Source of the DNA: Phycisphaerae bacterium
GTDB taxonomy: Bacteria > Planctomycetota > Phycisphaerae > UBA1845
Assembly: GCA_029260025.1 (NCBI GenBank)
Contig: JAJDDZ010000312.1
Span: 1-41,748, forward strand
Length of the DNA: 41,748 nt
Direction: 5' to 3'
The notes below the pieces were generated by a model that did not search any database, was not told where the DNA came from, and saw nothing but the letters and a program-made list of their open reading frames with translations. This document shows, in pieces, positions 28,848-32,324 of the stretch. The translations under genes were made by a program, and so were the position numbers. Every line of letters begins with the position of its first letter. Position 1 is the first letter of the stretch.

Positions 28848-28934
28848 GGAGGAGTGGCCGAGCGGCTGAAGGCGACGGTTTTGAAAACCGTTTGGCGGGA
28901 AACCGTCACGGGGGTTCGAATCCCTCCTCCTCCG
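28848..28934 (+). tRNA. tRNA-Ser (anticodon UGA)
   Basis: 87 nt; acceptor GGAGGAG/CTCCTCC, anticodon arm ACGGT-TTTGAAA-ACCGT, long variable arm, T arm GGGGG-TTCGAAT-CCCTC, discriminator G. Confidence 0.95.
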
Positions 28935-31274: not shown

Positions 31275-31556
31275 GTAGAGACCCGCCTATACACACTAAT
31301 ATTACAATTTCTCTTTCATTGAGCAGGGCGGTACTGAGAAATGCTGAAATCATCACGAGTCCGAAAAATAACGGATTGTCGGATGGCGCAACGCGCGCCT
31401 GGCCGGCGTGGCGTCGCCAACACCACTGAGGCGCCTTCCTGGACCATCTTCCGCGAACGAGGACGAGCCTCACAGCAACCCCCTAAAAAAGGCCAAACTT
31501 ACCGGACCCTCGCTTGCGCCTGCCGTTTCGTCACGTCCATCGAGTTCTATCGCGTC

Positions 31557-31715
31557 CTAGGGACGCCGCGACCCGCCAATGAAGAACAGCGGAATACCCG
31601 CCAAAATCATGCCCGAACCGAGCATGTTGAGCGGATCGCCTCAGCAGTACGCAAATCTCAGTCCCAGTCCAGCCAGGGGCAAGGCAAGGGCGACCCAGCG
31701 AAGTTTCCCCGTCAT
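31557..31715 (-). other. Small two-TM protein gene interrupted by an in-frame UGA (recoding/selenoprotein candidate or nonsense pseudogene)
   Basis: Codon-by-codon reading: MTGKLRWVALALPLAGLGLRFAYC(UGA)GDPLNMLGSGMILAGIPLFFIGGSRRP then TAG. AGGAG lies 7 nt before the ATG. UGA is at 31641..31643. Confidence 0.5.
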
Positions 31716-31892
31716 TTTTTCACTCCTGATTCATTCCCACGGTATATCGACCATCCAACCCCGGCCTGTTACATTTTGACATCGTTCGCACGCCCGGTAA
31801 CAATATCTCGTCGAGTCGGAGTCCTAATGCGACGGATATGGGATTGCTTTCGGGACCGGGCTGAGATTCCAAAATGGATGGATTGATCAATC

Positions 31893-32324
31893 GTGAACAA
31901 CGACAAACCCGCTGAGATGCGCGTTGAAATACTCAAATCAAAGCTGCACCAAGCGTGCGTCACACAGGCAGACCTTCACTACGAGGGAAGCTTGGGCGTC
32001 GATGTCGAGCTAATGGAAGCGGTCGGACTCTATCCGCACGAAAAAATCCTCGTTTCCAACATGAACAACGGCGAGCGCCTTGAAACGTACATCATCCCCG
32101 AACCATTCGGCTCGCGCCGGATTATCCTAAACGGGGCTGCAGCTCGCAAAGGGACCGTCGGCGACCGGGTCATTATCATGTCGTTTTGTCATGTGGATGA
32201 ATCCGTTGTTCGCGAAGGCAAGCACAAACCGCGCGTCATAAGGCTTGACGAAAAAAACGAACCCGTCATGCCAATTCCCAAAGCACCGACGACCGAAGAA
32301 ATCGCTGCCATGCTTGAAGACTAA
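31893..32324 (+). CDS. panD: Aspartate 1-decarboxylase PanD (GTG 31893 or, by family length, ATG 31917)
   Basis: LKSKLHQACVTQADLHYEGSLGVDVELMEAVGLYPHEKILVSNMNNGERLETYII with the G-S self-cleavage site; NGAAARKGTVGDRVIIMSF. Confidence 0.95.
   Translation: MNNDKPAEMRVEILKSKLHQACVTQADLHYEGSLGVDVELMEAVGLYPHEKILVSNMNNGERLETYIIPEPFGSRRIILNGAAARKGTVGDRVIIMSFCHVDESVVREGKHKPRVIRLDEKNEPVMPIPKAPTTEEIAAMLED

Follow-up and report, generated by a model that had tools for sequence, protein, structure and literature searches.

The window, a stretch of 41,748 nucleotides from a Phycisphaerae bacterium, carries on its minus strand a 52-codon gene with an in-frame UGA at codon 25, and sequence comparison strongly supports its identification as a gene whose UGA is decoded as selenocysteine (Sec). 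The product would be a small selenoprotein integral to the membrane, and the sources searched contain no earlier description of its family; we regard the Sec decoding, and that part of the claim alone, as almost certain. This kind of UGA decoding is known, while the protein family appears to be new. Selenocysteine had been proposed at this position in an earlier note made from the letters of the DNA, and the proposal is supported by the conservation of the UGA, by the conservation of the hairpin that follows it and by the presence of the sel genes in the genome.

The gene and its homologues

Checking the sequence base by base bore out the gene structure given in that note. The ATG at 31715-31713 (-) is preceded by AGGAG at a 7-nt spacing and is followed by 24 codons, the in-frame UGA at 31643-31641, 27 further codons and TAG at 31559-31557, up to which the frame stays open; the conceptual translation of 31715-31557 (-) reads MTGKLRWVALALPLAGLGLRFAYC-U-GDPLNMLGSGMILAGIPLFFIGGSRRP. 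The features of the locus are the following:

31557..31715 (-): probable selenoprotein gene, 52 codons including Sec codon 25, then TAG (base-by-base check; 60 homologous UGA genes)
31723..31727 (-): AGGAG Shine-Dalgarno (SD) sequence, 7 nt 5' of the ATG (base check; SD-like 4-mer in homologues)
31641..31643 (-): predicted Sec UGA codon, residue 25 (TGA in 60/60 listed homologues; TGC in the lone Cys copy)
31644..31646 (-): Cys24 codon, partner of Sec25 in a C-U pair (Cys in 51/59)
31608..31626 (-): putative SECIS hairpin, 7-bp stem 31626-31620 / 31614-31608, loop GGUUC 31619-31615 (covariation, folding and silent-site constraint)
31650..31712 (-): predicted transmembrane helix 1, residues 2-22 (AlphaFold2 model and hydropathy)
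31572..31634 (-): predicted transmembrane helix 2, residues 28-48 (AlphaFold2 model and hydropathy)

An SD-like 4-mer was present upstream of the start in 49/59 homologues. A loose motif combining the UGA context and the hairpin occurred once in the window and in 0/100 shuffles; since, in addition, 60 homologous genes keep the UGA, the arrangement is not attributable to chance. The divergent neighbour at 31893-32324 (+) appears to be panD-like, judging from a reading of its sequence.

When 200 relatives were searched in tblastn fashion, codon 25 of the query being set to X, more than 40 matches with one in-frame TGA were retrieved. With a profile, built at first from the first 30 homologues, 48 of the order's 114 genomes yielded 53 matches, of which 52 have TGA at the Sec codon and 1 does not. 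In a 392-genome sample of the phylum this profile recovered the gene of the window together with matches in 8 other genomes, each of them with TGA, and an enlarged profile contributed two more clear TGA matches (G449 and G471). Leaving these two aside, the family comprises 60 homologous UGA genes in 56 genomes (48/114 in the order and 8/391 sampled elsewhere in the phylum), a count of individually parsed genes that takes in the gene of the window and leaves out the Cys copy. Neither TAA, TAG, Trp nor any other non-Cys sense codon was found at the Sec position among the parsed homologues (60 UGA, 1 Cys), and the family seems to be almost entirely Sec, with one Sec/Cys exchange. A scan with the single protein found no relative, and the DNA pattern of the family, searched in viral contigs, gave no match.

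Read as a single sequence, the gene would be explained most simply by an ordinary TGG->TGA nonsense mutation, or a sequencing error, in a pseudogene, one of two simpler alternatives that the earlier note had raised. The homologues refute it and leave it a negligible probability: they reach past codon 24, the same codon is UGA in 60 genes and Cys in one, none has Trp, and purifying selection persists 3' of the UGA. The Sec reading is supported by the same comparison.

The sole Cys copy was found in G053, where TGC occupies the Sec codon (ATYCCGHPLAAIG) and the gene, with a probable TTG start, is directly followed, on the same strand, by a TGA paralogue (NYCUGHPLAAVG; L117:7913-8545, G053:C1). 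This copy is without the conserved GGT of the hairpin loop and bears a His-rich tail, HDHKHGHG...HDHDHDHE, which suggests metal binding. Two tandem Sec copies are present at L110:7990-8614 (G100:C101), which hints at homo- or heterodimers. At L126 and L129 (G035:C113 and G005:C38, respectively) lie divergent paralogues in which the residues around Sec are changed (CASUGGS and ADVUCTP); both genomes have the standard copy too.

Constraint on the protein and on the RNA around the UGA

Judging from the substitution ratios, purifying selection is acting on both sides of the UGA: in 27 closer pairs pN/pS was 0.33 before it and 0.37 after it (0.39 outside the hairpin). No other stop interrupts the sense frame from -22 to +21 codons in 59/59 homologues. 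Conserved residues flank the UGA, namely Gly16, Cys24 (51/59), Sec25, Gly26 (57/59), His/Asp27, Pro28 (52/59), Leu32 and Gly33, and the residue at U-5 is Lys or Arg in 22/22 short-form members.

These data bear on the second of the simpler alternatives, that of a 24-residue protein ending at the UGA, with the downstream conservation originating from an RNA element or an antisense gene. The antisense strand is indeed partly open in the window, where an ORF spans 31341..31886 (+), but none of the antisense frames is kept intact throughout the 59 homologues (interrupted in 24, 31 and 45, by frame); furthermore, the downstream conservation is codon-structured (pN/pS 0.37-0.39), with the sense frame free of stops in 59/59, and the UGA is never replaced by TAA or TAG. 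The short protein and the antisense gene are ruled out on these grounds as hardly credible, so that the homologues exclude both of the simpler alternatives to a Sec-decoded gene.

The hairpin, CATGCTC-GGTTC-GGGCATG, consists of a 7-bp stem starting 14 nt after the UGA and a 5-nt loop, GGUUC, starting at 21 nt, and its position as described in the earlier note was confirmed at 31626-31608. The bSECIS model specifies a loop of 3-9 nt, a stem of 4-16 bp, G in the first two loop positions, a UGA spacing of 16-37 nt and an MFE <= -7.5 kcal/mol (PMC13188914). The hairpin of the window agrees with the model on every count, the surrounding 42-49 nt folding at -14 to -21 kcal/mol, and its loop at 21 nt falls within the 16-37 nt, in keeping with the range that the earlier note gave for bacterial SECIS elements. 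For the 49-nt segment the folding energy is -20.7 kcal/mol (z = -2.8), which 2/200 shuffles matched.

The spacing of the hairpin is identical in 59/59 homologues, in a gap-free alignment. In these 59 sequences 91.5% of the cells of the seven-pair helix can pair, compared with 79.6 +/- 1.1% in shuffles and 29-52% in slid versions, two-sided compensatory changes occur in 5/7 stem pairs and covariation scores 0.418, compared with 0.207 +/- 0.016 in shuffles, the relatedness of the sequences inflating these pairing and covariation counts. RNAalifold independently predicted the inner five stem pairs. The clearest covarying pair, columns 17/31, is U-A in 32 sequences and C-G in 23; because this pair joins codons 31 and 36, the amino acids encoded there co-vary as well (Met/Leu with Met, and Ala/Pro/Thr with Ala/Val/Gly). 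Parsimony gave 9 changes at each position and only 1 supported independent contrast, on a protein tree whose resolution is too low for independent compensatory events to be counted formally.

Synonymous constraint is evidence separate from covariation. Silent differences were depleted about six-fold in the codons of the hairpin (pS 0.092, while the upstream codons have 0.57 and the downstream codons that are not part of the hairpin 0.59). The Leu codon of the stem is CTC in 53/53 genes and the Gly codon of the loop is GGT in 51/54, where 23% and 14%, respectively, would be expected from the same genes; all four codons are in use for the conserved glycines outside the hairpin. Thus the conservation of the hairpin, which had been named beforehand as support for Sec, is borne out by compensatory changes and by silent-site constraint.

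Selenocysteine machinery and the decoding of the UGA

The search for selA, selB, selD and tRNA-Sec that had been suggested in the earlier note found them all in the genome of the window. The tRNA-Sec has the anticodon TCA (66 bits), selA and selB are adjacent, and selD has an in-frame UGA at its known Sec site, reading LTDYATCAGUAGKLP. This SelD in its Sec form (CAGUAGKLP; L141, G000:C388:25813-26736) serves as a positive control for UGA decoding. A tRNA within the window, at 28848-28934 (+), scored 42.9 bits with the tRNA-Sec model and was rejected as a tRNA-Ser (TGA anticodon).

Throughout the order, the family keeps to genomes with SelB or a good tRNA-Sec (48/48) and is present in none of the 13 genomes lacking both (48/101 vs 0/13, Fisher p = 5.8e-4). 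Six of the 48 (G016, G020, G023, G031, G033 and G102) are without a good tRNA-Sec match and two (G056 and G100) are without SelB, several of these being incomplete assemblies; no family genome lacks both. Outside the order, all eight family genomes carry a tRNA-Sec of at least 70 bits.

Hairpins can stimulate readthrough, and it is conceivable that this one promotes a programmed readthrough of the UGA in which Trp or Arg is inserted and selenium has no part. However, Cys is the sole sense substitute, the hairpin conforms to the bSECIS geometry and its loop opens with GG, and only genomes with SelB or tRNA-Sec contain the family; given the Cys exchange, the geometry and the co-occurrence with the machinery, we rejected this explanation as very improbable. 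In the Sec decoding that we favor, the ribosome would reach the UGA 25 codons into the gene, and SelB, carrying Sec-tRNA(UCA) and attached to the hairpin that starts 14 nt later, would bring about its decoding as selenocysteine.

The protein, its possible role and its relation to known systems

The AlphaFold2 model (pLDDT 78, pTM 0.51) is a helical hairpin of residues 2-22 and 28-48 that places the C-U pair in the turn between the two helices, as anticipated in the earlier note, where a two-helix hairpin with a polar C-U-GDP turn was perceived. About two thirds of the members (37/59) have a long form, for which a third, C-terminal helix is predicted (pLDDT 80). Cationic residues cluster after helix 2, and from the basic C-terminal tails and the positive-inside rule we infer that both termini of the short form are cytoplasmic and that its C-U turn is periplasmic or outside. 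Searching Pfam and NCBIfam with 30 members gave no consistent or significant match, a PDB sequence-profile search found no relative, and a fold search with the 52-residue model returned helix pairs only, none of them significant (best E = 3).

The predicted product is best pictured, from its model, as a helical hairpin of 52 residues whose turn exposes a Cys-Sec pair beside the conserved Arg/Lys20, Gly26, His/Asp27 and Pro28, and this vicinal pair may alternate between a thiol/selenolate and a selenenylsulfide. A redox relay at the membrane surface, or a peroxide reductase, would be its most likely role, to which we assign about an even chance. Most characterised selenoproteins are redox enzymes, and since, moreover, Sec is nearly always kept over Cys in this family, a redox role seems somewhat likelier than the binding of soft metals.

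The gene neighbourhoods are mostly unconserved, most genes being alone or in lineage-specific surroundings, with synteny in small clades only. In a clade of five genomes (L125, L127, L128, L130 and L131) with the motif F-G-U-G-G, in which Gly replaces Cys24 before Sec, a lipoprotein of ~105 residues is encoded downstream on the same strand; it contains CATCALRMDG...HFCSAHCKETC and shows a weak zf-FCS resemblance (E = 0.005, below the cut-off). The Cys-Sec pair, the His-rich tail of the Cys copy and this lipoprotein are leads to thiol/selenol or metal chemistry.

The main rival reading, which we consider less likely, is that in the same selenoprotein the vicinal Cys-Sec pair serves at the membrane as a binding site for soft metal ions such as Cu(I), Hg(II) or Ag(I), the protein being a small metal-binding or transport hairpin that acts like the Mer membrane proteins. 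The best local match, of C-U-x-x-P to the C-C-x-x-P of transmembrane helix 1 of MerT/MerF, would fit such a function, as would the His-rich tail of the sole Cys copy and the CxxC...HFCSAHC motif of the lipoprotein encoded by the next gene in one five-genome clade. On the other hand, profile comparison gave probabilities of 0.5% (MerF) and 1.2% (MerT), that is, no detectable homology, no mer genes were recognised among the recurrent neighbours, and the lipoprotein partner is limited to one clade, whose members have Gly and not Cys before Sec.

A broader reading, which we hold tentatively and at somewhat less than an even chance, is that of a nearly Sec-obligate family of two- or three-helix membrane proteins whose Cys-Sec turn carries out a chemistry for which Cys almost never suffices, the candidates being soft-metal handling, or a reduction whose substrate is either membrane peroxides or an oxidant soluble in lipid. 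If true, it would also account for the family's escape from discovery methods that depend on Cys homologues.

An inventory from 2026 of 119 prokaryotic selenoprotein families has no entry with this motif and build (PMC13188914), the main text of a paper on planctomycete selenoproteins mentions no such family (PMC4807772), and a text search of the literature for CUGHP, with bioRxiv, subscription papers and RefSeq annotation outside its scope, gave nothing relevant. The authors of deep-Sep point out that their method may misidentify selenoproteins without Cys homologues (PMC12013277). The absence of the family from the catalogues would be explained by the reliance of such methods on Cys homologues, which it almost lacks. 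The family enlarges the bacterial selenoproteome by proteins of a kind that must escape any catalogue compiled from Cys homologues; this suggests that genomes contain more very small Sec-only membrane proteins that go unnoticed, being taken for 24-residue fragments or not recognised at all. As a helical hairpin of ~52 residues whose turn holds a single Sec, the protein would be a minimal system for the role of selenium at the membrane.

The gene shares with the bacterial selenoproteins decoded through SelB and a bSECIS, such as FdhA and SelD, the in-frame UGA and a hairpin after it whose loop has G among its first positions at a distance of 16-37 nt, and selA, selB, selD and tRNA-Sec are likewise present in the genome. 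In contrast to the listed bacterial families, to which no sequence relation was found, the new family is a tiny membrane hairpin for which Cys homologues are nearly absent (1 Cys against 60 Sec found). SELENOK and SELENOS are also small, membrane-anchored and Sec-containing; they are eukaryotic single-pass proteins with Sec near the C terminus and a eukaryotic SECIS. MerT and MerF, too, are helical membrane proteins of small size, and their C-C-x-x-P motif has a counterpart here in C-U-G-H/D-P, with Pro in 52/59; the resemblance is one of motif only, as hhalign gave no profile homology and no mer genes were recognised nearby.

Vicinal Cys and Sec are known from thioredoxin reductase, in its GCUG tail. 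SaoC, SaoL, HgcA and KCU-star are listed as vicinal Cys-Sec selenoproteins in a family table (PMC13188914), and the new protein had no family match to the NCBIfam models. All of these have in common with it adjacent Cys and Sec residues capable of forming a selenenylsulfide or acting as soft ligands, whereas in the new family, with proteins of ~52 residues, the pair is internal and would occupy the turn that joins two membrane helices.
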